Of a DNA stretch of 32,944 nucleotides, positions 88 through 32,241 are shown in pieces. A model generated the notes under the pieces. It did not search any database, had not been told where the DNA came from, and saw only the letters and a program-made list of their open reading frames with translations. Positions within the stretch are counted from its first letter, which is position 1. Each line of letters opens with the position of its first letter. Location: the NCBI GenBank assembly GCA_025455065.1, contig JALONG010000072.1, positions 1 through 32,944 of the forward strand, in the 5' to 3' direction. This stretch comes from Candidatus Kapaibacterium sp. (GTDB lineage Bacteria > Bacteroidota > Ignavibacteria > Kapaibacteriales > UBA4661). The position numbers were made by a program, and so were the translations under genes.

Positions 88-193
88 ATTGGTATAAGTT
101 TCTATGCTGGTTGGTAGTTCCGTATCGTCTCTGATTTGCCGTGTAAATTTCCTTGGTCAACTCTCCAAAACTTTTCACTTTTTTTTGACTACT

Positions 194-3100
194 ATGCGAT
201 TCTTTGCAACAAAGCACCGCTTGGGCTTGCTATATAGCGCCCTTCTGGTGAACTTACTTTTGTGTGCTGTTCCAACGGTGTGGGCATCTTCTCCAACATG
301 GAAACGTTTCGGCGCGTTACAACAAGCCCGACACGCCTTTGCAGCCTATCCGATTTCTTCTTCTCGTGCGCTGGTTATTGGCGGATACACTGGCGCGGCA
401 AGTGGCACGTTTTCCGGCTCACCAACGGCACGTTGTGAGATTATTGACGCTGATGCACGAACAATTACCGCCGGACCTTCGATGAATGTGCCTCGTGCAG
501 AGTTTGCTTCGGTGCAGATGCCCGACGGCAGCATTGTTGTCGTAAGCGGCGTAAATGTTGCAGGCGGAGGCTTGACTAATACTGTGGAGGTCTATAACCC
601 AAGTACGCAAACATGGCGTAATGTGGGTAGTGTCAATATTGCCCGTCGTCAGCACGTTGTTTGTGCGCTGAACGCTGATGAAATCTTAGTCGTAGGCGGA
701 CGATTAGCAAATTTGAACAGTATTGCCGCTTCAGAAATTGTGAATATTCGCACCGGAGTAAGCCGTCGTGTGGCGGATTTTCCCTATCCAATCAATTCCG
801 GTGCTGCTGTGCAATCCTCTTCAGGAAAACCACTTTTTTTTGGTGGAAGAAGCGGTGGCGGGGACAGTTACCGAACAACGGCAATGTATGAGTACGACCA
901 AGCCACAAACCAATGGCTTGTTTTCGGTAATATGACTGCTGCCGTGCAGTCCGTCGTAGCGTTCAAACATTCTTCTGGCAGATTTGTTCTTTCAGGCGGT
1001 ACAGCGCGGGAAAGTTTTACGCCATTTCTGGGGAATCGCACGGTAAGTATTGAATCGGCAAATAGTGTGAGTGTTGTTGCCGCAATGCAAATTGACAGAG
1101 TATGGCACAGCGTTGCCGAATGGAATGCGGATTCAATCGTAACCATTGGTGGTTTGAATAACATGAATACTTCCACAAGTAGTGTAGATTGGATAAATCT
1201 GAGTAATGGTCAAAGCACCGCAGCCGCTTCATTACTTACGGAACATTCACACGGACAAGCCGTCAGTCTGCCCGGCAGAGATGCAAACGGACGTGTACAG
1301 CCTCGCATACTGATGATTTCCGGCTTTTCTGCTGGTTATCGGGAAAATTCTTCCATCGAAATCCTCGACCGCAGCGCCGACAGCAATTCCACCGCCGCAA
1401 CCGCCCCACGAATCACTTCCATTGAGCCGTTGCAAGCAAGCATTGGCGCACGGATAACGCTTCGTGGGCGAAATTTTACGGGTGCAAGTCGCATTACCTT
1501 TGGTGGTGTTCCGGCAGCAAGTTTTATCGTGCAGTCCGATAGCGTCATTATTGCAACGCTTGGTCAAGGCGCATCGGGTGTTGTGCGGGTGACTACGCCT
1601 GTGGGTAGTATTCAGGCAGAGGGTTTTGTGTTTACATCGCCTCCGGTGATTGCCTCATTTAGCCCCGCCCGTGCGAATGTCGGAGGGCGCATTGTGATTG
1701 TCGGTTCAGGATTTATCGGTGCGCGAAGTGTGAGTATTGGCGGTGTAGCAGCAGAAATATTTAGCGTAGATTCTGATTCGCGGATTACTGCTGTTATTGC
1801 TGCCGGAGCAGTAAGCGGCGATGTGGTTGTCCGGGCAGACGGTGGAGAAGCGCGTCGTAGTGGCTTTTCATTGGATGTACCGCCTGTTATTACTGCCTTA
1901 CGGGATACGATTGCGACCCTCGGCGACACGATTCGTATTCACGGGCAGCATTTCACAGGTGCAAGCGATGTGCGTTTCGGCACAACAACGGCATCGGTGC
2001 GGGCAATTTCTTTCCGTGTTGTATCGGATTCGTTGATTGTGGCGGTCTTGGGAAGCGGGATGTCGGGCGGTGTTGTGGTTACGACACTGGGCGGCACGGT
2101 GTTTTATCGTGGATTGCGGTATATTGAGCAGATGACCTCGCTGGGGCAGTTCGGGTATGGGATGTACCAGCCGGCGGTTGATTCTAAGGGTAACTTGTAC
2201 ATTTCCCAAGAAATGCGCGGTGTGTGGAAAATCGAACCAAGCGGCAAAGCAAGCATGGTCTTGGGTACACCGAACAGGCTCGCAGGCGGTATTGTTATTG
2301 ACAGCAGTGATAATGTCTTTATTGTGGACAAAGAAACTAACGGCGTTGTCGGAACGCGGATTGTCAAACTCACACCCGCAGGCGTATTTACGGTCATCGC
2401 CGAAAGCCCTCTGTTCCAGAGTATTTACGGTTTGGTAATGGATAAAGACGGCAATATGTATGCCGTGAGTTATGCCAATCACGCTATCGTCAAAATTACG
2501 CAAGAAGGCGTTGTTAGTTATATTTACTCCGGTGAACCTTTAAATGAACCCGTAGGTTTGAACTTCGACAGCAACGGAGATTTGCTGATAACCAATTACA
2601 AAGGCGCTGCTATCGTACGGTATTCCTTTTGTAGCGGTCAGGCGGATGTGGTTTATGACGGCAGGGCAATCAACCTTCCCCATGGTATTTTGGTGGCGCA
2701 AAGCGGGAATATGTTTATTGCAGACCACTTCGGAAGCAAAATTTTGAAGATGACACCCGAAGGCACGTTTGAGGAGTTTATTGGTGCAAGCGCTCCTTTT
2801 CCTCGTAATATCTCGCTTCTCCGCCCGACGGGTCTGGCACTCACGAAAAACGGCACATTCTATGTCGTGGATTATCAAAACGGGCGCATTTTCAGCACTC
2901 CTTCGATTGACGAAAAGCCGATAGATCGCTCGAAAATGGGCAGTCCGCTAGAAATCAGATCCTTCGTCCCAACTACCGGCACCGTCGGTCAGCAAGTCAG
3001 TATTCGCGGGCTTGGCTTCTCGTGTGGGGTTTCGGGAGTATTTTTTGGTGGAGCGCCTGCTCGCTCTATCCGCATCGTTTCGGATTCATTGATTATCGCA

Positions 3101-6100
3101 ACCGTTGGCACGGGTGCAACAGGCGAAGTCCGTGTTGCAACCGAAAGTTCTTTTGCCGCAATGATGCTTTTCACCTTCACAGGGACAACCTCCGGTACGG
3201 TTGTTACTCCACCAAACCGCGTCCCGCCTCGTATTCTGGGATTCGCACCTGCAACGGTAGCTGTGGGAGCGCGTATCACTATCACAGGCGTAGGGTTTCT
3301 TGGTGCGAGTTCCGTGCGTTTTGGCTCTTCGACGGCATCAGTAGCGGCTTCGTCGTTTACGGTATTATCGGACTCGGTGATTATTGCTGTTGTTGCAAAC
3401 GGGACATTATCGGGAAGCGTTTTTGTTACCACACCCTTGGGAACAGCCCGACGCGAAGGCTTTCGTATTCCAGAAGCAATCCGTCAATTAGGACAATTCG
3501 GGTATGGGATGTATATTCCGGTGATTGATTCACGTGGTAACATCTATATCACCCAAGAACTTCGGGGTGTCTGGAAAATAAGCCCTGACGGCACATCACG
3601 TCTTGTCTATCGTTCTGCATTCCCAACAGGCGGTATTACCGTTGATAAGCAGGATAATGTCTATATGTGCGATGAAGGTGGTACGAGCATTGTCAAAATT
3701 TCACCGAGTGGCGTTGCGAGTCTTTTTTGTCGCAGCCCACTGTTCAAATCTGTTGCCGGATTAGAAATTGACAACGAGGGGAATATCTATGCTTCGGCAT
3801 ATGAAACAAATTCCATTCTGAAAATTACCCCTGATGGTAGGACGGTTACAACTGTCTTTCGTGGTGCGCCGCTTGATGGCTGTATAGATTTGAAGTTTGA
3901 TGCGGAGGGAAATCTTATTGTCGCAAATTATGGCAATAACGCACTGGTGAAAATTACTCCCTGTGGAACGGCTTCTATCCTGTATCAAACACCTGCTGCC
4001 AACACATCGCCAATGCATTTCCCGCATGGTTTGACGATTGCTCGTAGCGGCAAAATTTTCGTTGCCGGATACAGAAGTGGTGCGGTTATTCAGTTACCGA
4101 GGAATGGTGGGACGCCTGTTCAATATGCAAGCTCAGCGCCAAGTGCCGTGCGCAATATCTCGCTGCTGGAGCCGCTCGGAGTTACAATTTCTCCCGAAGG
4201 CTGGATGGTCGTAGTGGATTACCGCAACGGTAACGTTTGGCGTGTGCCAGACACGGGTGAAGAGCCGCTCCCGCGCGAAGCAATTCTCACAACTCCCGCA
4301 ATTACGTCTTTCACTCCCACAACAGGCACGGTCGGACAGACGCTTACCATTCGTGGGCAACGCTTTTCGTGCGGAGTTTCGCGCGTGAGTGTGGGAGGCA
4401 TTCCTGTACGGGAATATACAGTTGTGGCAGATTCACTGATTATTGCGACACTTGGAACAGGCGCAACAGGCGCTGTGAGCATTACAACGCCTCTCGGCAC
4501 TGCTTCGCGTGAACGGTTTGTATTCGCAACATCTTCTACAATGAACCCTGTCAGCACAACGCCGACGATGACCGTTACAACCCCTACCGTTACTGCACCG
4601 ACGCTTACGCTTGTCCCGCCGTCCATTCTGACGTTCACCCCGACGCAAGGCACGGCAGGCACAATCATCAGCATCATTGGTCAAGGTTTTATCGGTGTTC
4701 ACAGCGTGATGTTCGGTTCTGCGACGAATGCCACACCTGCCGCAACGTTCCTTGTGCGCTCGGATTCGCTCATCGTTGCGACGCTGGGAAGCGGCGCTTC
4801 GGGGAATGTTACGGTGATAAGTACGACAGGAATAGCAACACGACCGGGATTTGTGTTTATTCTTCCAACACCGCCAATTTCGACAACGCCGACAGTCGTC
4901 GTTGTGCCACCGCCTACTCCTGCGGACACAACAAGCATGACGCTGCCTCCGCCAAGCATTACCACATTCGCGCCTTCCTGCACGGCAGGAGGAAATCAAC
5001 TCACCGTTGTCGGAACAGGCTTCACAGGCAGACCGGAAGTCCGCGTGGGGCGTTTGGCTTCGGCAAATGCTCCGGCGCAGTTGGTCTTGGCAAATGCGAT
5101 TGTCGTTGTCTCGACAACGCAGATTTTAGTAACGCTTCCAAGCGGCTTGTCTCGCTTCACAGGCTTACCAAGCGGTTTGCGGGATTTTGGTGTGAGCGTC
5201 AGTACAACCACAGGCACGGCAACGCGCTCCGGCTTGCAATACGTCGAAACGCCGCCTACAATCAACGCTTTTTCGCCTTCGTCGGCAACGCAAGGCGACA
5301 GGCTTTTTATCGTTGGTCAGGGCTTTACGTGTGTGAGCGATGTTCGCGTCGGTGGCAGCACCGTTGCAAATTATCAGGTCGTTTCCGACACACTGATTGT
5401 GGCGACGCTTGGCGCTACAACTTCAGGCACGGTGCGGGTTACAACGCCTGCGGGTGTGGTGGAGCGCGGCGGATTTGTGTACGCCGTATTCCCACTTTCG
5501 CTCTTGCCTTCGATTACAAGTTTTGCGCCCACAGCTGCTCGCGTTGGGCAGACCGTAACAATCACAGGTTCAAACTTTAGCGGTGTTGCCTCTAATGGAG
5601 CGCCCTTTACAACAACATTCGTGAGTCTGGGCGGTGTTCCGCTTCCCTTCACAGTTGTTTCGCCAACGCAAATAACCGTGAGGATTCCGGCGGATTTTGC
5701 TCCTACAAACACCGATGTTCGCGTGATGACTCCGGGCGGAAGCGTCTCGGCGCAAGGATTTACGTTTATTCCTGAACCCGTCATTACCTCGTTTGGTCCG
5801 ACTTCGGCAAGCACAGGCTCTGTGGTGCTGATTTCAGGACGGAATTTCACGGGAACAAACGCCGTGCAGTTCGGTAGCGTACGGGCGCAGTCGTTCACCG
5901 TGCTTTCCGATACGCTCATTAGCGCGGTTGTCGGCGACGGCGCAAGCGGCGATGTGCGCGTAACAACGCAAAACGGCACGGCAACACGCTCCGGCTTTAC
6001 TTTTGTCATTCCGCCGCCGTTTATTACCTCCTTTACACCGACGCAATTTGTTGCTTCGACGACAATTACGATTACGGGACGCAACTTCGTTGGAAACGGC

Positions 6101-8875
6101 TACACAACGCAACTTGTGCTGATTGGCAATAATCCCTCAACAATTATTTCTGTCAATCCTACGACGCTCGTTGTTCGCGCTCCGTTGGCTATTCAATCAA
6201 CCACCATCACCGTCATTACGCCCGGAGGCACAGCAAATGCTTGCTGTCTGACCGTTCCACAAACGATGATGCCGTCGTTGCCGCAACCGCCGCGTATTAC
6301 GGGCTTTTCGCCTCCCTTGGCGAGTGTCGGAGCAGTGGTAACAATTCGCGGTGAACATTTCACCAATGCTAATGATGTGCGCTTTGGCGGTGTTACAGCA
6401 GCGTCCTTCCGCGTCGTTTCTCCGACCGAAATTCAGGCAACCGTTGGTGCTGGGGCGACAGGCGAAATCACCGTCCGCACATCGGTCGGAACGGCTGGGT
6501 TTGCAGGCTTCACGTTTATTACGCCGCCGCAGCCCATTATCACCGGCTTCTCTCCGGCAACAGGCGCGGCGGGCGATACGGTGCGGGTTCGCGGACAACA
6601 TTTGCTCACAGTTTCTTCGTTTACGATTACCGGCGACCCGAATATTACAGTAAACGCCAACTTCACAACAAGCGGCGACACGCTTGTAACGGCGGTCTTG
6701 GGCGCGGGACAAAGTTTCTCGCTTGGCACAATCAACCTGCGCACACTTGGCGGAACGGCTCGTGCGACGGGCTTTACGTTTATTGCAGCGCCCGTCATCA
6801 CGTCGTTTTCGCCGAGTATTGCAGGAAATGGCGATGCGGTGGTGATTAACGGGGCAGGCTTCGACAATGTGCAGTCAGTGGCGTTTGGTAACTCTCCGAA
6901 TGTGGTGCAAGCGGCATCGTTTGTGGTTAATTCTCCAAGCCGCATCACTGCTCGCCTCAGCACAGGTGCAACGGGAAGCGTCGTCATCACAACACGCGGC
7001 GGTACTGCTTCGCGCGAAGGCTTCATTTTTGCTCCTGTGCCTGTGATTACGCGCTTTTCGCCGGATTCGGCTCGTGCAGGTGAAAGTGTGCGCATCGTGG
7101 GAAGCGGCTTCATTTCGCAGTCTGCGGTGAGTGTGGTAAATTTTGGCGGTGTTCGTGCTGCATCATGGACGGTCGTTTCTGACAGCGTTATTACCGCAAT
7201 ACCCGCACAAACAGGCGCTACGGGTGCTATCACGCTGACCACGCCCGGCGGAACGGCAACGCGCAACGGCTTTGTGTTCCTTGCGCCATTGCCAACGATT
7301 ACGAGTTTCACGCCGCAACAAGCCAGCGTGGGCGATATTGTAACGATTATCGGCACGAATTTGAACGGTGCTACGTCGGTCAGCTTTGGCAGTCGCGCAG
7401 CCGCTTCATTCCTTGTTTCCTCGCCGACACAGATTGTTGCCCGCGTTGGTAACGGCACAAGCGGTACGATTACCGTTCAAACGCCCGGCGGACGTGCCAC
7501 AGCGCCAAACTTCGTGTTTATCCCCGCTCCGCCTGCGATTACCTCCTTCAGTCCTGACAGCGCAGCCGCAGGTCAGACCATTACGCTGCGCGGACGCGAT
7601 TTTTCGGGCGTTACGGCGGTGCGCTTCACCGCAAACGGTACGACGCACACAGCACAATCTTTTTCGGTTACGAATGATTCCACAATGACTGCCCGCGTTC
7701 CGGCACTTGGTACAAACCGCGTCAGTGCTAGTGTTTCGGTGCAATCTCCGAATGGTACAGGCTCTCGCGACGGCTTGCAATTTGTCCCTGCGCCGACGGT
7801 AAGCGGCTTCACGCCTACTTCTGCGACAGCAGGAACAACAGTTGTCATCACGGGAACAAACTTCACAGGCGCAACGGCGGTGCGCTTTGGCGGCACAAAT
7901 GCTCGGTCGTTTGCGGTTAATTCCGTAACCGAGATACGGGCTGTGGTGGGCGCTGGTGCAAGCGGCGCTGTGAGCGTTGTGAGTTATGGCGGTACGGGCG
8001 CACGAGACGGGTTTGTTTTTGTTGAACCGCAAGTGGTGATTCCTGCGCCGACTATTATTTCGTTCACGCCGCAAGAAGCCGCGCAAAATGCGACGGTTAC
8101 GATTACGGGAACAAACTTTAGCGGCAATGGTTTGTCCGGCATTACCAACGTCCTTTTTGGTGGTGTTCCGGCGCAATCCTACGCGATTCAGTCGCCGACA
8201 ACGATTACGGCAGTGGTTGGTGCGGGTACAAGCGGCGCAATTACGGTAACAAGCGCCAGAGGCAATGCGACGGCAAGCGGCTTCCGCTTTATTCCTGCGC
8301 CGATTATCACAGATTTCACGCCAAAGTCGGCGGGACGCGGTGCGGTCATCAGCATTGTGGGACGGAATCTCGCCGGAGCAACATCGGTGAGCTTTGGCGG
8401 AACAGCCGTGCAGTTCACGGTTTCCGGTGATACGCTTATTCGGGCAACGGTGCAGATTGGTTCCACAGGCGCGGTGAGCGTTACCACACCCGGCGGGACG
8501 GCAACGGCTCAAGGATTTACCTTCCTTTCCGGGGTTTTTGCGGCAACTAATCCTGCGGCAGCTAATCCCAAAGATGGAGCAGTTCTCACATCGGTTGCCG
8601 CACAAAGCAGTATGCAAGCGGGGTTGCGGGTGTATCCGAATCCTGCCCAAGAGATGCTGACGATTGAAGCCGCTTCGGAATGTGCCTCGGTGCAGCCGCT
8701 TCGTTTCGTTGTCCGCAATAGCATTGGTGCGGTTGTGATGACGTTTGATGCTCAAAATCCGAATAGTGCGTTTCGCAAGGAAATCAACGTTGGTGCGCTT
8801 CCTGCGGGAGCGTATTCGGTGGAAATGCTTTGCGGCGCGGGAGAGCGCTTTGTTGCAAGGTTTGTGCGGTTTTAA
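194..8875 (+). CDS. Giant secreted Kelch/NHL/IPT-repeat protein with type IX sorting domain
   Basis: The product is about 2893 residues, probably exported by the type IX system and attached to or released from the cell surface. I chose ATG 194 rather than ATG 104 because it begins a clean signal peptide (MRFFATKHR, then a hydrophobic run ending VWA-SS near residue 31). Order of domains: Kelch-like beta-propeller at about 35-400; three IPT/TIG units from about 403; an NHL/SMP-30-like propeller at about 646-915 (LGQFGYGMY...); two TIG units; a second, closely similar NHL propeller at about 1097-1365; then sixteen further TIG units to about 2778, for 21 TIG units in all. The last 85 residues match a type A sorting domain (RVYPNPAQE, then LPAGAYSVEML, ending FVARFVRF). 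Ser/Thr/Pro-rich linkers flank TIG 7. The ligand is unknown; adhesion or carbohydrate/protein binding is an inference from IPT and Kelch families. Confidence 0.88.
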   Translation: MRFFATKHRLGLLYSALLVNLLLCAVPTVWASSPTWKRFGALQQARHAFAAYPISSSRALVIGGYTGAASGTFSGSPTARCEIIDADARTITAGPSMNVPRAEFASVQMPDGSIVVVSGVNVAGGGLTNTVEVYNPSTQTWRNVGSVNIARRQHVVCALNADEILVVGGRLANLNSIAASEIVNIRTGVSRRVADFPYPINSGAAVQSSSGKPLFFGGRSGGGDSYRTTAMYEYDQATNQWLVFGNMTAAVQSVVAFKHSSGRFVLSGGTARESFTPFLGNRTVSIESANSVSVVAAMQIDRVWHSVAEWNADSIVTIGGLNNMNTSTSSVDWINLSNGQSTAAASLLTEHSHGQAVSLPGRDANGRVQPRILMISGFSAGYRENSSIEILDRSADSNSTAATAPRITSIEPLQASIGARITLRGRNFTGASRITFGGVPAASFIVQSDSVIIATLGQGASGVVRVTTPVGSIQAEGFVFTSPPVIASFSPARANVGGRIVIVGSGFIGARSVSIGGVAAEIFSVDSDSRITAVIAAGAVSGDVVVRADGGEARRSGFSLDVPPVITALRDTIATLGDTIRIHGQHFTGASDVRFGTTTASVRAISFRVVSDSLIVAVLGSGMSGGVVVTTLGGTVFYRGLRYIEQMTSLGQFGYGMYQPAVDSKGNLYISQEMRGVWKIEPSGKASMVLGTPNRLAGGIVIDSSDNVFIVDKETNGVVGTRIVKLTPAGVFTVIAESPLFQSIYGLVMDKDGNMYAVSYANHAIVKITQEGVVSYIYSGEPLNEPVGLNFDSNGDLLITNYKGAAIVRYSFCSGQADVVYDGRAINLPHGILVAQSGNMFIADHFGSKILKMTPEGTFEEFIGASAPFPRNISLLRPTGLALTKNGTFYVVDYQNGRIFSTPSIDEKPIDRSKMGSPLEIRSFVPTTGTVGQQVSIRGLGFSCGVSGVFFGGAPARSIRIVSDSLIIATVGTGATGEVRVATESSFAAMMLFTFTGTTSGTVVTPPNRVPPRILGFAPATVAVGARITITGVGFLGASSVRFGSSTASVAASSFTVLSDSVIIAVVANGTLSGSVFVTTPLGTARREGFRIPEAIRQLGQFGYGMYIPVIDSRGNIYITQELRGVWKISPDGTSRLVYRSAFPTGGITVDKQDNVYMCDEGGTSIVKISPSGVASLFCRSPLFKSVAGLEIDNEGNIYASAYETNSILKITPDGRTVTTVFRGAPLDGCIDLKFDAEGNLIVANYGNNALVKITPCGTASILYQTPAANTSPMHFPHGLTIARSGKIFVAGYRSGAVIQLPRNGGTPVQYASSAPSAVRNISLLEPLGVTISPEGWMVVVDYRNGNVWRVPDTGEEPLPREAILTTPAITSFTPTTGTVGQTLTIRGQRFSCGVSRVSVGGIPVREYTVVADSLIIATLGTGATGAVSITTPLGTASRERFVFATSSTMNPVSTTPTMTVTTPTVTAPTLTLVPPSILTFTPTQGTAGTIISIIGQGFIGVHSVMFGSATNATPAATFLVRSDSLIVATLGSGASGNVTVISTTGIATRPGFVFILPTPPISTTPTVVVVPPPTPADTTSMTLPPPSITTFAPSCTAGGNQLTVVGTGFTGRPEVRVGRLASANAPAQLVLANAIVVVSTTQILVTLPSGLSRFTGLPSGLRDFGVSVSTTTGTATRSGLQYVETPPTINAFSPSSATQGDRLFIVGQGFTCVSDVRVGGSTVANYQVVSDTLIVATLGATTSGTVRVTTPAGVVERGGFVYAVFPLSLLPSITSFAPTAARVGQTVTITGSNFSGVASNGAPFTTTFVSLGGVPLPFTVVSPTQITVRIPADFAPTNTDVRVMTPGGSVSAQGFTFIPEPVITSFGPTSASTGSVVLISGRNFTGTNAVQFGSVRAQSFTVLSDTLISAVVGDGASGDVRVTTQNGTATRSGFTFVIPPPFITSFTPTQFVASTTITITGRNFVGNGYTTQLVLIGNNPSTIISVNPTTLVVRAPLAIQSTTITVITPGGTANACCLTVPQTMMPSLPQPPRITGFSPPLASVGAVVTIRGEHFTNANDVRFGGVTAASFRVVSPTEIQATVGAGATGEITVRTSVGTAGFAGFTFITPPQPIITGFSPATGAAGDTVRVRGQHLLTVSSFTITGDPNITVNANFTTSGDTLVTAVLGAGQSFSLGTINLRTLGGTARATGFTFIAAPVITSFSPSIAGNGDAVVINGAGFDNVQSVAFGNSPNVVQAASFVVNSPSRITARLSTGATGSVVITTRGGTASREGFIFAPVPVITRFSPDSARAGESVRIVGSGFISQSAVSVVNFGGVRAASWTVVSDSVITAIPAQTGATGAITLTTPGGTATRNGFVFLAPLPTITSFTPQQASVGDIVTIIGTNLNGATSVSFGSRAAASFLVSSPTQIVARVGNGTSGTITVQTPGGRATAPNFVFIPAPPAITSFSPDSAAAGQTITLRGRDFSGVTAVRFTANGTTHTAQSFSVTNDSTMTARVPALGTNRVSASVSVQSPNGTGSRDGLQFVPAPTVSGFTPTSATAGTTVVITGTNFTGATAVRFGGTNARSFAVNSVTEIRAVVGAGASGAVSVVSYGGTGARDGFVFVEPQVVIPAPTIISFTPQEAAQNATVTITGTNFSGNGLSGITNVLFGGVPAQSYAIQSPTTITAVVGAGTSGAITVTSARGNATASGFRFIPAPIITDFTPKSAGRGAVISIVGRNLAGATSVSFGGTAVQFTVSGDTLIRATVQIGSTGAVSVTTPGGTATAQGFTFLSGVFAATNPAAANPKDGAVLTSVAAQSSMQAGLRVYPNPAQEMLTIEAASECASVQPLRFVVRNSIGAVVMTFDAQNPNSAFRKEINVGALPAGAYSVEMLCGAGERFVARFVRF

Positions 8876-9182
8876 GCGGTGAAGTTTTTTCGCAAAAAAA
8901 AAGAGCCTGATTGATACTCTCAATCAGGCTCTTGTGGTTTATTCTCGCAGGTGTCTCAATTTTTGCTTACGGTATCATTTCAGAACAAGTGCGGAGAATG
9001 GCAAAACTGGTTGCGTTTACCAGTGCTTTGGGGTGATATGCTTTAAGTCATTATTTATCAATCGTTGTAAAGCGTGTCCTTTGTGCCGATTCTCAAAATG
9101 ATATTTTCCAAGAAGTGGCATAGGTATTGAGTAGTCGGGGCTTGTAATGGTGTTTTTTCTCTCTTTTTTTTCGAGGTGTGTT
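8876..9182. other. Intergenic region between two secreted-protein genes
   Basis: This 307-bp gap holds a terminator hairpin at 8901-8933. The remaining roughly 250 bp show no credible ORF. I found no good TTTG-N20-TAnnTTTG promoter. The best approximation is TTTG-N18-TATTTTCC around 9080-9110, which is too weak to annotate. The promoter of the next gene presumably lies here. Confidence 0.5.
8901..8933 (+). terminator. Rho-independent terminator-like hairpin
   Basis: A perfect 14-bp stem (AAGAGCCTGATTGA at 8901-8914 and its complement at 8920-8933) encloses the loop TACTC. An A-run precedes it and a weak T-rich stretch follows, so it should stop transcription from the giant gene. The A-run would make it a stronger terminator for minus-strand transcription. 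The same hairpin occurs in reversed orientation at 11283-11317. Confidence 0.8.
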
Positions 9183-11207
9183 ATGCGTTCTTGTTTCGTG
9201 GTGGTCTGCTTATTGGTGCTGTCTTTTGGTAAACAAATGCTTGTTGCTCAAGAATTGCACTGGGAGCCGTCATTCGTCCGTTTTGATTGCAGAATCAACC
9301 TTTTTGCAACGAGTGGTCAAACACTTTATGCGGGAGCAAGTGATAATCTTTATCGCTCTGATGATAGCGGCAAAACATGGCGTGGGCAACTTAATAATTT
9401 GGGATCTCCTTCGATAAATGCAATAACCGATTACAGCATCGGCGTTTTTGTAGTCGGCGCTTTTGTAAGTTCTAATGGTTTGTTCTGTAATGGAAATAAC
9501 TGTTCGTCAATCCTTGTCAGTGCAAGGACTAACGCCGTTGCGGCTATTGGAAACATTCTGTTCATTGGTACAGGTACTTCGGGCGTATTACGTCGTACCA
9601 ATTCAGGATGGTCACCCTATAATGTAGGTTTGACATCCAATATTAGCGTTCTTACCACAAGTGGTAGTATCCTGTATGCCGGAAGCCCTCTTGGAATGTA
9701 CCGCACACTTGACAGTGGTTTGACTTGGAGCGCTATCAATCGTGGTTTGGCGGATACTCGTGTGCAGGCAATTGCAGCTAATTCATCGTTTGTTTTTGCA
9801 GCGACAGAGGGCGGTATTTTTCGTTCGCAAGATAGCGGAACTACGTGGATGGCAGTAAATACGGGCTTGACAGAACGTAATGTCAAAGCAGTCATCATCG
9901 GCGATGGAGCAGTTTTTCTTGCCACAAGCACAGGCACAGTTTTCCGTTCTACCGATAACGGCGTTAATTGGATCAGAGTACCGTTTAGCTTTCAAGGCTC
10001 TCCTGTACTGTCATTTGGGAAATTGCAGAATATGATATTTGCTGGAACGCGAGAGGCAGGAATATTTCGCTCTGCGGATAATGGTGTAACGTGGCAACAA
10101 TTTGGCGACGGACTTACCCAGCGAAGTGTTTCCGGTGCGGTTTCTGTGGGTTCATTGCTTCTTCTCAGTCGTGGGAATGCCTTATATTCGCTGGAAAGTA
10201 ATGGGAAAGAATGGAAGTTTTATGCGAATATGCCCGGCGAGGCAGATACGTTCATTGCATTGGGAAAAACGATGTACGCCTACCGACGTTTTGGAAATGG
10301 GATGTATCAGTCCGATAATCTGGGTAAAGTATGGGAGCGAAAAGATGGTTTTGTGAATGTTGTTTCTATGCAATCGAATCTCTTGTTTTCTTGGAGCGTA
10401 GGTGGGGTGCTTCGTAGCTCAGATACAGGTAAAACATTGCAAGTAATCAGTTACCACAATATTCCTAATGCAAGCCTATTTGCTGTTCCTAATTCACGGA
10501 TACTTTTTGCACTGAGTCCCCGAGACAGCAATAGTAAACGTTCCGCAGACAACGGGTTTACATGGAGCAACTTCAATAGCGCACGATTTTCCCCATACTC
10601 ATTTTTCCGCCAAGGCGCGGCAATCCTTGCTGCAACCCCTCGTGGTTTGCAGCGCTCCGACGATGATGGTGCAACATGGAGAGTAGTAGGGGATACGGTC
10701 GTGAGTCGGATACAGGTCGGAACAACGCTATATGCGGCTATAAGCGGTAGCGGAGGTTTTCTGCGTTCAAATGATAATGGTATGACGTGGGCGGTTGAAA
10801 GTTCGGGATTGCCCGGAGTATTTATTGATTGGTTTTATGCCAATAATGGAACAATAATTGCCTCGACAAGCCTAGGTCTTTTCCAAGCAATACTGCCCGC
10901 AACTATCACATCTGCCGCATCCGTAGTGTCGCGCTCATCGGTATCAAGCCACAGTAGTTTTATCTTCCGCCCCAACCCCGTCACCAATCAAACCACGCTT
11001 CAACTCGACCTTGCAAGTACGACACCTGTTACAATGCTGCTGTACAATACGCTTGGGCAGTGTGTCCTTTTGCGGGAATTGGGAACATTGCCCGAAGGCG
11101 CACACGACATCATGCAGGACATGAGCAATATCCCGCGAGGTGCATATACGCTGGTTGTGCAGGCAGGAAGCGAGCGTTTGGCGCGTCAGTTGAGAGTGAT
11201 GCCGTAG
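9183..11207 (+). CDS. Secreted Ycf48/BNR-repeat protein with type IX sorting domain
   Basis: The product is about 674 residues. ATG 9183 is preferred over ATG 9147 because it has a GAGGTG ribosome-binding site just upstream and opens a typical signal peptide (MRSCFVVVCLLVLSFG...MLVAQ-E). The body holds repeated units of about 45-50 residues containing S-x-D-x-G-x-T-W (for example RSDDSGKTW, RTLDSGLTW, RSQDSGTTW, RSADNGVTW). These are characteristic of BNR/sialidase-like and Ycf48-like beta-propellers. The C-terminus (FRPNPVTNQTTLQL, then IPRGAYTLVVQAG, ending LRVMP) is a type A sorting domain. It is probably exposed on or released from the outer membrane. The function is unknown, and no catalytic sialidase residues are evident. 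The N-terminal half of the third large protein (21756-25718, minus) carries similar repeats. Confidence 0.87.
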   Translation: MRSCFVVVCLLVLSFGKQMLVAQELHWEPSFVRFDCRINLFATSGQTLYAGASDNLYRSDDSGKTWRGQLNNLGSPSINAITDYSIGVFVVGAFVSSNGLFCNGNNCSSILVSARTNAVAAIGNILFIGTGTSGVLRRTNSGWSPYNVGLTSNISVLTTSGSILYAGSPLGMYRTLDSGLTWSAINRGLADTRVQAIAANSSFVFAATEGGIFRSQDSGTTWMAVNTGLTERNVKAVIIGDGAVFLATSTGTVFRSTDNGVNWIRVPFSFQGSPVLSFGKLQNMIFAGTREAGIFRSADNGVTWQQFGDGLTQRSVSGAVSVGSLLLLSRGNALYSLESNGKEWKFYANMPGEADTFIALGKTMYAYRRFGNGMYQSDNLGKVWERKDGFVNVVSMQSNLLFSWSVGGVLRSSDTGKTLQVISYHNIPNASLFAVPNSRILFALSPRDSNSKRSADNGFTWSNFNSARFSPYSFFRQGAAILAATPRGLQRSDDDGATWRVVGDTVVSRIQVGTTLYAAISGSGGFLRSNDNGMTWAVESSGLPGVFIDWFYANNGTIIASTSLGLFQAILPATITSAASVVSRSSVSSHSSFIFRPNPVTNQTTLQLDLASTTPVTMLLYNTLGQCVLLRELGTLPEGAHDIMQDMSNIPRGAYTLVVQAGSERLARQLRVMP

Positions 11208-11223
11208 GTTTGTACAATGTGTT

Positions 11224-11261
11224 CGGGAGAGCGCTTTGTAGCGCGGTTTGTGCGGTTTTAA
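11224..11261 (+). pseudogene. Relic of the giant gene's 3' end (GERFVARFVRF tail)
   Basis: Just after the stop of the preceding gene, codons 11226-11261 read GERFVARFVRF followed by TAA. This is identical to the last eleven residues and stop of the giant protein ending at 8875. The similarity continues through the TAAGCGGTGA stretch and into the following terminator hairpin. The relic has no start and is out of context, so it looks like a leftover from recombination between related 3' ends. Confidence 0.7.
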
Positions 11262-11282
11262 GCGGTGATGTTTCTTTTGCAA

Positions 11283-11317
11283 AAAGAGCCTGATTGAGAG
11301 TATCAATCAGGCTCTTT
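11283..11317. terminator. Bidirectional terminator hairpin between convergent genes
   Basis: A perfect 15-bp stem (AAAGAGCCTGATTGA and complement) encloses the loop GAGTA. It has T-rich sequence on the right and an A-run on the left, so it can serve both the plus-strand BNR-repeat gene and the minus-strand lipoprotein gene. Its central 33 bp are the exact reverse complement of the hairpin at 8901-8933. Confidence 0.82.
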
Positions 11318-11337: not shown

Positions 11338-12150
11338 TTATTTCTGCTTATACTCGTGCAAATCCCGCAAGAGCGCTGTAATCCTTGCGTCATTGACAGG
11401 AACAGCCGGAAACGTCGCATTTGCCTTGCTTTGTACGATTTTGGGGAAAGGATTTTTTCGGAACACGCCCGTAAACACGTCAATATGGTTGCCTTTGATT
11501 GCTCCGCCAATATCGCCCGCAAAGAAATACCCGTCGTGCAGGACTTTTTTGCCGGAAGGTAATTCCACCTCCGTTCCGCGAACACCCGGAATATACAGCA
11601 CAGAGCCAATCGGGTACGTGTTCGTATCAACGGCAATCGTGCGAAACGGCACTAACATCAAGCCTTTTACGCCATCACCAAACTCACCCCGGGCGTAAGT
11701 GTAGCGTGTGCGCCCGATAGCTTCCGGCTTGATGAGTGGTCCTTTGAAAAACTTCGAGCAGTCCACCTGCAAATCTTTTCCGCGCCCTGCGTAATTGTAG
11801 GTGCGCAGATTTCCCGCCGAATCTTTCACCAAAATTGTTCCTTCCACGCCGCCATGACACCAATCGTAATCGCTCAAATTCACACCAAAACTTTTGCCGT
11901 CCATGTCCAACAGCGCATGACCATTGGCGTTGGTGGCTTCGGCATAATGCACGTAGTATTGCGTTGCCCAGAGCGAATTTGCCTGCTGCGTAGGCGTGGT
12001 GCTGTTCGGCGTGGTGCTGTATTCCGGCAATCCGAAGGCATATTCGCCAAGTGTGGAACGGTCAATTTGTAACGAAGTTTGCTGCGAAGAAGCGCATGAA
12101 TACAGGGTTAGAGCAGTGCAAAGGGTGAAAAGGAGGGGAAGTTTTTGCAT
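11338..12150 (-). CDS. 3D-domain lipoprotein (MltA-like C-terminal fold)
   Basis: The product is 270 residues. The N-terminus MQKLPLLFTLCTALTLYSC is a lipoprotein signal with lipobox LYSC, placing Cys19 as the acylated residue and the protein in the cell envelope. The C-terminal half carries a 3D (Asp-Asp-Asp) domain: an IAVDTNTYPIGSVLYIPG segment, then GYFFAGDIGGAIKGNHIDVF with the conserved aspartates. This domain forms the catalytic part of MltA-type lytic transglycosylases and related cell-wall proteins, so a role in peptidoglycan cleavage or remodelling is likely but inferred. The N-terminal half (about 30-150) has no motif I recognise. The gene ends at the shared bidirectional hairpin and is followed upstream by a palindromic repeat element. 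Confidence 0.82.
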   Translation of the reverse strand: MQKLPLLFTLCTALTLYSCASSQQTSLQIDRSTLGEYAFGLPEYSTTPNSTTPTQQANSLWATQYYVHYAEATNANGHALLDMDGKSFGVNLSDYDWCHGGVEGTILVKDSAGNLRTYNYAGRGKDLQVDCSKFFKGPLIKPEAIGRTRYTYARGEFGDGVKGLMLVPFRTIAVDTNTYPIGSVLYIPGVRGTEVELPSGKKVLHDGYFFAGDIGGAIKGNHIDVFTGVFRKNPFPKIVQSKANATFPAVPVNDARITALLRDLHEYKQK

Positions 12151-28888: not shown

Positions 28889-28970
28889 CATAAAAACTCA
28901 AAACTCATCACTCAAAACTTTCTTCAACCACAATGACCTCACGCGACATCCGACAATCGTTCCTTGATTT
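28889..28970 (+). repeat. Upstream copy of the alaS leader and first 12 codons
   Basis: From GCATAAAAACTC to GATTT this segment matches 29644-29732. The coding part (ATG 28933 onward) is identical at 36 of 38 positions. The leader part differs mainly by one heptamer unit: four ACTCAAA-type units here against five at 29651-29685. Confidence 0.88.
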
Positions 28971-28974
28971 ATGA
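28933..28974 (+). pseudogene. alaS 5' fragment forming a 13-codon leader ORF
   Basis: ATG 28933 reads MTSRDIRQSFLDL and stops at TGA 28972-28974. The first 12 residues are identical to the start of alanyl-tRNA synthetase at 29695. The stop codon overlaps the PIN start codon as ATGA. If the alaS initiation signals still work, ribosomes ending here could reinitiate on the toxin gene. Confidence 0.7.
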
Positions 28975-29378
28975 ATGCGATACTTGATACCAACGTGCTT
29001 GTCGCCGGAGTACGCTCCAATACAGGCGCGTCGTTTCGAGTACTAGAGTTGGCGCTGCGTAAAGTTTTCACACTTCACGTTTCCACGCCACTGTTATTGG
29101 AATATGAAGAAGTTTTACTACGGCAAACGCCCTTGAATAGTACGGAAGTCTCAAGCCTCCTTACTCTGCTGACCATCATTGCGGAAGAGCATGAGATATA
29201 TTTTCTCTTTCGTGGTGTTCTGCCCGATGACGATGATGCCATGCTTTTAGAGCTGGCAATCAAAGCCCAAGCCTTGATTATTACGCATAACGTCAGGCAT
29301 TTTGAAAAAGCAGAGGATTTCGGTATTATCGTCTTGCGACCACAAGAATTTCTCCATCAATTCCAACCAAGGCTATGA
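28971..29378 (+). CDS. PIN-domain toxin of a toxin-antitoxin pair
   Basis: The product is 135 residues. PIN-domain acidic residues are visible: MNAILDTNVLVAG (Asp6), LLEYEEVLLR (conserved Glu), LPDDDDAMLLELAIKAQA (Asp cluster), and THNVRHFE near the end. This is the COG1569-like branch of PIN ribonucleases, expected to cleave RNA and block translation. The start codon overlaps the stop of the alaS-derived leader ORF, and the 3' end overlaps the antitoxin start by 4 nt (ATGA at 29375). The toxin-first order is less common for PIN pairs. The catalytic residues look intact. Confidence 0.8.
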   Translation: MNAILDTNVLVAGVRSNTGASFRVLELALRKVFTLHVSTPLLLEYEEVLLRQTPLNSTEVSSLLTLLTIIAEEHEIYFLFRGVLPDDDDAMLLELAIKAQALIITHNVRHFEKAEDFGIIVLRPQEFLHQFQPRL

Positions 29379-29643: not shown

Positions 29644-29732
29644 GCATAAAAACTCAACACTCAAAACTCATCACTCAACACTTTCTTCAAAACAATGACC
29701 TCACGCGACATCCGACAATCGTTTCTCGATTT
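29644..29732 (+). repeat. Downstream copy of the alaS leader and first 12 codons
   Basis: This copy belongs to the intact alaS gene and pairs with 28889-28970. It has five heptamer units (AACTCAA, CACTCAA, AACTCAT, CACTCAA, CACTTTC) upstream of the start codon. Confidence 0.88.
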
Positions 29733-32241
29733 TTTTGCTTCTAAGCAGCACCGCATTGTGCCTTCTGCGCCCGTTGTGCCGCATGGCGACCCGACCTTGC
29801 TTTTCACTAATGCAGGGATGAATCAATTCAAAGACGTGTTTTTAGGCACGGGTAAACGCGAGTATTCACGCGCTGCCGACACGCAAAAGTGTATCCGCGT
29901 TTCCGGCAAACACAACGACCTAGAAGAAGTTGGTTACGACACCTATCACCACACGTTTTTCGAGATGTTGGGGAACTGGAGTTTCGGCGATTACTACAAA
30001 TCCGAAGCCATAGATTGGGCATGGGAACTGCTCGTCGGCATTTGGAAACTCGACCCCAAGCGTCTTCACGCAACTGTCTATAAAACCGACGACGAAGCCG
30101 CAAAACTTTGGGAGCGATACCTCCCGAAAGAGCGTATTCACTACTTTGCCGAAAAAGATAATTTCTGGGAAATGGGCGAAACCGGACCCTGCGGACCGTG
30201 TAGCGAAGTCCATTACGACCGCACACCCGATTTTTCCGGTGGACCCCTCGTCAATGCTGGTGTTCCTGAAGTAATTGAAGTGTGGAATTTGGTCTTTATC
30301 CAATACAACCGCAAAGCAGACGGCTCACTCGAAGAACTCCCCGCAAAGCACGTTGATACGGGTATGGGATTCGAGCGAATTTGCGCTGTTGTGAATGGCA
30401 ACGATTCCAACTACGACACCGACGTATTTACGCCGATTATCAGCACGATTGCAAGCATGAGCGGACGCGAGTATCAAGGCGCACTCGACGACAAAGATTC
30501 AATCGCCATGCGGGTTATGGCTGACCACATTCGCACCGTGAGCTTCAGCATTGCCGATGGCGCATTGCCGGGCAATGAAGGGCGTGGCTACGTGCTTCGC
30601 AGAATTTTACGCCGTGCTTCGCGGTATTCTCGTAATTTGGGTTTCCGCGAACCCGTTTTGTACAAACTCGTCCAAACGCTGGTGGACACGATGGGCGATG
30701 TGTTTCCTGAAATTAAGGAGCAGCAAAATATCGTTGAGCGCGTGATTAAGGCGGAGGAAGAATCGTTCTTGCAAACGCTCGACAGAGGGTTGGAAAAATT
30801 TGAAGATATTGTCAGCCGTTTGCGTCCGAATGACCAAGAGCGTATTGCCGGAGCGGATGCGTTTTTGCTGTACGACACATTCGGCTTCCCGCTAGATTTG
30901 ACGCAGCTTATTGCCCGTGAACGCAATTTGACGGTGGACGCGGCGGAGTTCGTTGCGCTTATGGATGAGCAGCGTGAACGCTCGCGCAAGGCTCGTAAAA
31001 CCACGTTGCAAGAAGTAGAAATGTCTGTCCTTGCGGAACGAAGTGGCTTTACAGGCTACAACGAACTCACGACCGAATCAACCGTGCTGCACGTGCAGGG
31101 TAATCAAATCGTCTTGGCAAAAACACCGTTTTATGCGGAAATGGGCGGGCAAGTCGCCGACCAAGGTACAATCACGCTTGGTGGCACGGCGTACAACGTG
31201 GTGGACGTGCAGAAATCCGGCGATGCGATTGTGCATATCTGCGACCGCGAAGTAGAGCCACTTGTGGGGCAAACAGCCCTTGCCAGCGTGGATAAACGCC
31301 GCCGTGCGGACATTATTGGCAACCACTCTGCGACGCACCTTTTGCATGAGGCTTTGCGCCGCGTACTGGGAACGCACGTCCAGCAGGCGGGTTCGGTGGT
31401 AACGGCTGAAGGTTTACGCTTTGATTTCCCGCATTTCCAGAAAGTTACGCCGGAAGAAATGCAACAAATTGAGGATATGGTCAATGAAAAAATCCGTGAG
31501 AATATCCCTGTGCGCACTCTCGAACTGCCTATTGAAGAGGCACGCAAAGTACCGGGCGTAAAAAGTTTCTTCGGCGATAAGTACGGCGACGTGGTGCGTG
31601 TGGTGATTATAGACGACAAGTTTTCGGCGGAGTTCTGCGGCGGAACGCACGTTGGTAACACGAGCGAAATCGGCTTGTTCAAACTCACGGGCGAATCTTC
31701 GATTGCTGCCGGAACACGCCGTTTGGAGGCTGTTACAAGCGCAGGTGTGCAAAAGTACATTGCGAATCTTCATGCGCAAATGACCGACAAACAGCGTGAA
31801 TTCGAGGAAGTGCAGCACAAAATGAAGCAACTCGAAAAAGAACTCTCAAAATTTCAAGTAAACGCCCTCGCAGGGCAAGTACAAGGCTTCCTCTCGAAAG
31901 CGCAAAGCGTGAATGGGGGCGGCTTGCGCGTCGTTGCAGAGCAAATCGAAGTAGCACACATTGACCAGCTAAAAGCACTCGGCGACGAACTCCGCAACAC
32001 ACTCGGAAAACAAGGCGTAGGGCTGCTTGCAAGCATTATTGACGATAAAGTCCAACTCGTCTGCGTTTCAACGGACGACATGAAAGACAAATATCCGGCA
32101 GGAAAAATCGTTGGTGCGCTGGCGAAGGAACTCGGCGGCGGCGGCGGCGGAAAACCGCATTTGGCAACAGCAGGCGGGAAAGATGTAGAGAAACTTCCTC
32201 AGATTCTGAGCGGCTTTGCGGGGTTTGTGGAGAAGTTTTGA
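29695..32241 (+). CDS. alaS: Alanyl-tRNA synthetase
   Basis: The product is 848 residues, close to the usual length. It charges tRNA-Ala with alanine in the cytoplasm and edits mischarged serine or glycine. The N-terminus (IRQSFLDFFASKQH then PTLLFTNAGMNQFKDVFLG) and EMLGNWSFGDYYK are signature class II catalytic segments. Editing-domain zinc ligands are present in NHSATHLLHEALRR and FCGGTHVGNTSEIG. The C-Ala domain ends with a Gly run and KPHLATAGGKD. The gene appears complete and functional. Its leader and first 12 codons are duplicated upstream around the PIN pair, so its original promoter may now lie on the far side of that cassette. Confidence 0.97.
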   Translation: MTSRDIRQSFLDFFASKQHRIVPSAPVVPHGDPTLLFTNAGMNQFKDVFLGTGKREYSRAADTQKCIRVSGKHNDLEEVGYDTYHHTFFEMLGNWSFGDYYKSEAIDWAWELLVGIWKLDPKRLHATVYKTDDEAAKLWERYLPKERIHYFAEKDNFWEMGETGPCGPCSEVHYDRTPDFSGGPLVNAGVPEVIEVWNLVFIQYNRKADGSLEELPAKHVDTGMGFERICAVVNGNDSNYDTDVFTPIISTIASMSGREYQGALDDKDSIAMRVMADHIRTVSFSIADGALPGNEGRGYVLRRILRRASRYSRNLGFREPVLYKLVQTLVDTMGDVFPEIKEQQNIVERVIKAEEESFLQTLDRGLEKFEDIVSRLRPNDQERIAGADAFLLYDTFGFPLDLTQLIARERNLTVDAAEFVALMDEQRERSRKARKTTLQEVEMSVLAERSGFTGYNELTTESTVLHVQGNQIVLAKTPFYAEMGGQVADQGTITLGGTAYNVVDVQKSGDAIVHICDREVEPLVGQTALASVDKRRRADIIGNHSATHLLHEALRRVLGTHVQQAGSVVTAEGLRFDFPHFQKVTPEEMQQIEDMVNEKIRENIPVRTLELPIEEARKVPGVKSFFGDKYGDVVRVVIIDDKFSAEFCGGTHVGNTSEIGLFKLTGESSIAAGTRRLEAVTSAGVQKYIANLHAQMTDKQREFEEVQHKMKQLEKELSKFQVNALAGQVQGFLSKAQSVNGGGLRVVAEQIEVAHIDQLKALGDELRNTLGKQGVGLLASIIDDKVQLVCVSTDDMKDKYPAGKIVGALAKELGGGGGGKPHLATAGGKDVEKLPQILSGFAGFVEKF

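Follow-up and report, generated by a model that had tools for sequence, protein, structure and literature searches.

The window analyzed here, a stretch of 32,944 nucleotides that forms contig 79 of the draft genome of Candidatus Kapaibacterium sp. (5,614,454 bases in 131 contigs), contains two copies of one gene end, and the hairpins that close them are exact reverse complements of each other. Copy A (8838–8933, plus strand, 96 nt) consists of the last 11 codons of a giant gene for a secreted protein, its stop codon, a 3′ untranslated stretch, and hairpin A. Copy B (11224–11316, plus strand, 93 nt) is a noncoding second copy of the gene tail, stop codon, and hairpin, and it lies behind a second gene (gene 2) encoding another cargo protein of the type IX secretion system (T9SS). 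The pair is most likely the product of two ordinary events, both of a known kind. Here, we propose with moderate confidence that copy B is the 3′-end stump of a giant-type gene left beside gene 2 by illegitimate recombination, and that the loop of one hairpin was flipped separately by a template switch.

The alignment of copies A and B has 97 columns, of which 84 are identical, eight are mismatches, and five are gap columns. The 11 codons for GERFVARFVRF and the following TAA are preserved in both copies, which lie 2.4 kb apart on the same strand. Copy B begins 16 nt past the TAG stop codon of gene 2 (11205–11207). Its frame coincidentally matches that of gene 2, and it would be translated only upon stop readthrough. 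The preliminary description of the window had reported that about 95 bp of tail, stop, and terminator recur behind the second secreted-protein gene and are nonfunctional there as coding sequence, and both statements hold. In a BLAST search of the whole genome with a 126-base query around copy A, copy B was the sole other similar place (E = 6.8e-26); beyond copy B and the reverse-matching hairpins, the next match was 18 bases long (E = 0.05). The tail was searched genome-wide as DNA, and the peptide-level search was made within the genus using the 88-residue sorting domain. When 99 genomes including the source were searched with copy A (E ≤ 0.001), matches were found only in the source genome and in that of a relative, G007 (at two sites, over 37 bases of coding tail), but this search detects close copies only, because it missed the tails of the giant gene orthologues in two other relatives, G001 and G004.

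Hairpin A (8901–8933, plus strand) has 14-bp arms and the loop TACTC, and hairpin B (11284–11316, plus strand) has the loop GAGTA. Over these 33 nt, the two are exact reverse complements with no mismatch, just as the preliminary description had stated for the terminator core. The perfectly paired arms measure 14 bp in hairpin A and 15 bp in hairpin B. A genome-wide search for the hairpin, a check suggested in that description, located AGCCTGATT followed 3–20 nt on by AATCAGGCT at the A and B sites alone, and the two are a real pair. The looser core AGCCTGA..TCAGGCT was found at seven sites in the source genome (A and B included) and at 23 in the eight genomes of the genus, and a reversed control pattern gave none. 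The hairpin core is thus a recurring theme, but the unit of tail and hairpin is not repeated. The seven core hairpins could suggest that A and B are unrelated members of a dispersed terminator family having the same stem and random loops, the outcome that the preliminary description had named as refuting its reading. We regard this explanation as very unlikely and rejected it, as there are only two copies genome-wide: the longer stem is present at two sites only, the homology covers the full 93–96 bp including the codons, and each loop is the exact reverse complement of the other. Of the 17 perfect hairpins (arms of at least 10 bp, loops of 3–8 nt) present in 110 records of the source genome (G000) and G007, the A/B pair alone shares the inner nine stem bases. 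Behind the giant gene orthologues of G001 and G004, the hairpin loops are neither TACTC nor GAGTA.

Outside the hairpin, copies A and B differ at 5 of 59 sites, and the 28 arm nucleotides are unchanged (P = 0.08 at that divergence). The probability that point substitutions would produce an exact reverse-complement loop is about 1.9e-5 at the local divergence. Because the arms are perfect, a flip of the loop alone and a flip of the whole hairpin yield identical sequences. Hairpin-associated small inversions are reportedly treated by Kelchner and Wendel (1996), whom papers on chloroplast DNA cite for them. According to two such papers (PMC6005162, PMC2939885), small inversions of this kind are known in chloroplast DNA, where the loop alone of a stem-loop is inverted, as in the present case; those cases concern plastid DNA and a comparison of orthologous sites. 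A closer parallel in geometry is the template switching between short inverted repeats in yeast coding genes, for which arm homogenization together with spacer inversion is described (PMC8604942), with arms exceeding 9 bp and 2–5 changed spacer bases. As in yeast, perfect arms (14 bp here) are kept identical, and a short spacer (5 bases here) is reverse-complemented. The present case differs in that the hairpin is bacterial and terminator-like and that the two copies are in one genome, whereas the yeast changes are between strains. Two features of a template switch, perfect inverted arms and a spacer that is the exact reverse complement, are found in A and B. We suggest that, in one of the two copies and separately from the duplication, the DNA polymerase would have jumped from one perfect arm to the other as template and back again, so that the arms stayed identical and the five loop bases became reverse-complemented. 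The loop flip is most likely an ordinary replication slip, a known type of mutation. The hairpin inversion suggested in the preliminary description is well supported by the low probability of point changes (about 2e-5) and by a geometry that matches published spacer inversions.

The folding of both hairpins as RNA is far better than that of shuffled sequence (z between −5.8 and −7.4). A terminator scan of the region found seven sites as against 3.8 expected in shuffles, and it listed hairpin A on both strands and hairpin B on the plus strand. The long T-run of hairpin A is on the minus strand, and its plus strand is T-poor, with only a weak run. Hairpin B, located between gene 2 and a convergent gene for a 3D-domain protein, has a T-rich stretch on either side, as for a two-way terminator, although the scan lists its plus strand only. 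A stable G+C-containing stem with a T-run, as in intrinsic terminators, is present in the hairpins, and they probably act as transcription terminators.

Comparison with relatives supports copy A as the resident gene end. Orthologues of the giant gene are present in G001, G004, and G007, and a hairpin with the AGCCTGA core follows the gene in two of the three (G001 and G004) at the place of copy A, but not in G007. G001 also has an orthologue of gene 2 (contig C450, 44% identity), which follows the giant gene as in the window. The interval between the two genes in the source genome shares with G001 short blocks in the same order, namely the hairpin core, TCGGGGCTTGTA, and the region before the start codon. 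No tail copy was found behind gene 2 of G001, and the DNA following the giant gene in G004 (about 9 kb) and in G007 (1.5 kb) showed no gene 2. The 3D-domain gene is present in all eight genomes of the genus. A tblastn search resolves a tail of only 11 codons poorly; in a check of both DNA and peptide, no tail was found beyond the 3′ end of the gene at the 3D-gene loci of the seven relatives (L065–L071). By eye, the DNA beyond that end resembles the window in none of the seven; G001 resembles G007, G005 resembles G006, and the other three differ. Since the G001 and G004 hairpins match A in position and neither G001 nor the seven 3D-gene loci have a tail copy, copy A was probably in place, and copy B arrived in the source lineage.

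The origin of copy B depends on whether it was once the end of a gene. In the 11 codons, copies A and B differ at three nucleotides, all synonymous. Three random substitutions would preserve the peptide with P = 0.013 if independent and 0.005 if clustered as here. This hints that copy B is a former real gene end. In local DNA matches, the tail of G004 is closer to copy B (26 of 29 bases) and that of G007 to copy A (25 of 27), as might be expected of two separate alleles. Two states of copy B, the third base of GCG and the first base of CGG, are also found in the G004 orthologue. In the mechanism proposed here, a second giant-gene end, cut down to its last 11 codons, would have been fused by illegitimate recombination to the sequence directly following gene 2, and its stop codon, 3′ stretch, and terminator would have been retained ahead of the 3D-domain gene. 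Either a block containing gene 2 may have been inserted, through a homologous joint at one side and an illegitimate joint at the other, or most of a duplicate may have been deleted. The stump may persist because its hairpin would terminate transcription between gene 2 and the 3D-domain gene convergent to it. The insertion route resembles homology-facilitated illegitimate recombination (PMC3240628), in which a block could be inserted through two joints, one of them homologous and the other illegitimate, with a gene-end stump left behind; for copy B, this route is a proposal. The recombination at 3′ ends that the preliminary description had put forward is plausible as an event, and its individual steps are what we infer.

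Several observations weigh against this recombination reading. No genome was found with an intermediate state, that is, with a second giant gene or with a giant gene convergent on the 3D-domain gene. The similarity stops exactly at the hairpin, as direct copying of the tail–terminator unit would also yield. The three coding differences lie within 5 bases and could be a single event, and if all of them arose in copy A, where changes are filtered anyway, they would be uninformative about B. Over 12 tail codons, copy A has fewer mismatches than copy B to three of the four relatives' tails (7 versus 9, 5 versus 6, and 4 versus 6), and B is closer than A to G004 only (6 versus 8); such plain counts also fit B as a drifted copy of A. 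As for the flip, none of five hairpins (arms of at least 8 bp) compared between G002 and G004, which are about 92% identical at the compared places, had an inverted loop (four were the same, and one had a single-base change), so loop flipping is not seen independently in the genus.

An alternative is direct copying: a patch of about 95 bases, made during replication or repair with the giant-gene tail as its template, would have been pasted behind gene 2, and copy B would never have been a gene end. The hairpin would have flipped in the pasting template switch or in a later one. We consider this a serious possibility, though on balance a doubtful one. It would explain why the duplication comprises the tail and terminator only, with a block ending exactly where the hairpin ends, and it agrees with the short distance between the copies, their common strand, and the nearness of copy A to most of the relatives' tails. 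Template switching alone would then account for both the duplication and the flip. Against it are the purely synonymous coding differences (P = 0.013) and the recurrence of the two copy B states in the G004 orthologue, which is more natural if B was once coding.

The preliminary description had further raised the possibility that hairpin inversion and recombination at 3′ ends exchange the tails of sorting domains. The A/B pair does not show this. The copied tail forms no part of the sorting domain of its recipient, as copy B carries only 11 codons and lies beyond the gene 2 stop, and the domain of gene 2 is unrelated at the DNA level to that of the giant gene (52% identity in a global alignment, near background). 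Sorting-domain exchange is a question separate from the A/B pair, but whole T9SS sorting domains seem to have been exchanged elsewhere in the source genome and in G007, without hairpins. In G007, two different giant genes (L073, 10909–11149; L074, 1525–1765) are 85% alike over 235 bases, from the YPNP region at the start of the sorting domain to the stop codon, and the preceding DNA is near background. In a cluster on contig 95 of the source genome, the body of one gene is 78% identical in protein to that of one neighbor, and its sorting domain is nearer that of another neighbor (84% versus 69%), whose body is 27% identical. The sorting domains of seven neighboring T9SS cargo genes (L168, G000:C95:15500–30500) are 63–85% alike in DNA, and those of two others (L182, G000:C95:97600–101500) are 91% alike. 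The bodies in both groups are mostly unrelated or less alike than the domains, pointing to possible exchange. In G007 (L225, contig C11), a 710-base tract (1077–1786 and 6568–7277) is repeated at 99% identity about 5.5 kb apart, each copy over the sorting-domain region of a T9SS gene.

Identity at fourfold sites was compared between domain and body in 11 pairs picked for DNA similarity at the domain from 62 source-genome and 48 G007 records, excluding pairs related over their full or near full length (e.g., L142/L152) and the L225 pair. Identity was higher in the domain in eight of the 11 at an uncorrected one-sided P < 0.05 and in four after dividing by 11. Because the pairs were picked for similarity, the test establishes their existence and not their frequency, and for the two C95b pairs it means little, because their upstream alignment is at chance level, with eight and nine sites. 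The first 100 bases of the 3′ flank in these pairs are 40–53% identical in global alignments, which is background, so the terminators do not travel with the domain. The C95y/z and G7C90b/c pairs additionally share some 345 bases of the body at 84% and 87%; body and domain are both patchily similar, and the exchange, if real, is thus not confined to the domain. In the source genome, 150 matches to the sorting-domain family were scored at E ≤ 0.01. Among the titles and abstracts listed in literature searches, none describes T9SS sorting-domain exchange as a general process. T9SS cargo genes do recombine in Porphyromonas gingivalis, whose surface proteins with T9SS C-terminal domains undergo domain rearrangement (PMC5266723); adhesin domains and alleles are concerned there, whereas copy B is a noncoding tail.

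Two further explanations link copy B with such exchange. In the broader one, the 3′ ends of T9SS cargo genes would be a hot zone of recombination, exchange beginning near the YPNP boundary would distribute sorting domains over unrelated secreted proteins, copy B would be the scar of a tail swap, and the hairpin would be the switching point. We find this rather unlikely. It is still less probable that the 3′ ends work as exchange cassettes that recombine at their terminator hairpins, copy B being a spare or spent tail. The excess likeness of sorting domains over their own gene bodies at fourfold sites, seen in several pairs of the source genome and G007, favors the cassettes insofar as 3′-end exchange probably occurs in the genus. 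Those tracts, however, are whole sorting domains with a 3′ flank at background in its first 100 bases, while copy B has only 11 codons outside any frame in use, and the genome contains no third unit of tail and hairpin.

The giant gene (104–8875, plus strand) is an open reading frame of 2923 residues with Kelch and NHL repeats, many TIG domains, and a C-terminal T9SS sorting domain (Por_Secre_tail, residues 2843–2908). Gene 2 (open reading frame 9147–11207, plus strand, 686 residues) encodes a BNR/sortilin-like propeller with its own, different T9SS sorting domain. Its start is more probably the ATG at 9183 than that at 9147: the product from 9183 begins MRSCFVVV and resembles a signal peptide, and the G001 orthologue has an ATG at the matching place. 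The single in-frame TGA of that orthologue seemingly lies just ahead of this ATG, as read by eye. The 3D-domain gene (11338–12150) is on the minus strand. The open reading frames of at least 80 residues between the copies are gene 2 and three short frames overlapping it. An integrative element with att sites at gene ends was also considered, as a direct repeat of a gene end is present, and is not supported: among the Pfam and NCBIfam matches of gene 2, the frame searched, there was no integrase. Rfam gave no match within the window at gathering scores, and no tRNA or tmRNA gene was found there.

Other repeats were also observed. Just upstream of the giant gene, positions 60–99 form one end of a short element, dispersed in the genome and bounded by terminal inverted repeats, that looks like a miniature inverted-repeat transposable element; they match a copy in L153 at 90% over 40 bases. 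A 131-base query from L163 has at least 43 matches in this genome, of which at least 41 span 97 bases or more; scoring covered 40 of 253 first-look candidates, and more copies are possible. A downstream copy of the element is present in four of the 62 T9SS-gene records. A direct repeat of 78 bases (28893–28970 and 29656–29732, 92% identical) has one copy that stops just ahead of an open reading frame (28971–29378) and another that overlaps the start of a second (29695–32241).

The A/B pair is a clean case, in a bacterium, of an inverted loop within a terminator-like hairpin, seen between two copies within one genome, and it cautions against treating flipped hairpins as special elements. If sorting-domain tracts are indeed exchanged, as the excess at fourfold sites in the selected pairs may indicate, such exchange would help to explain why one genome has so many interchangeable C-terminal export tags.

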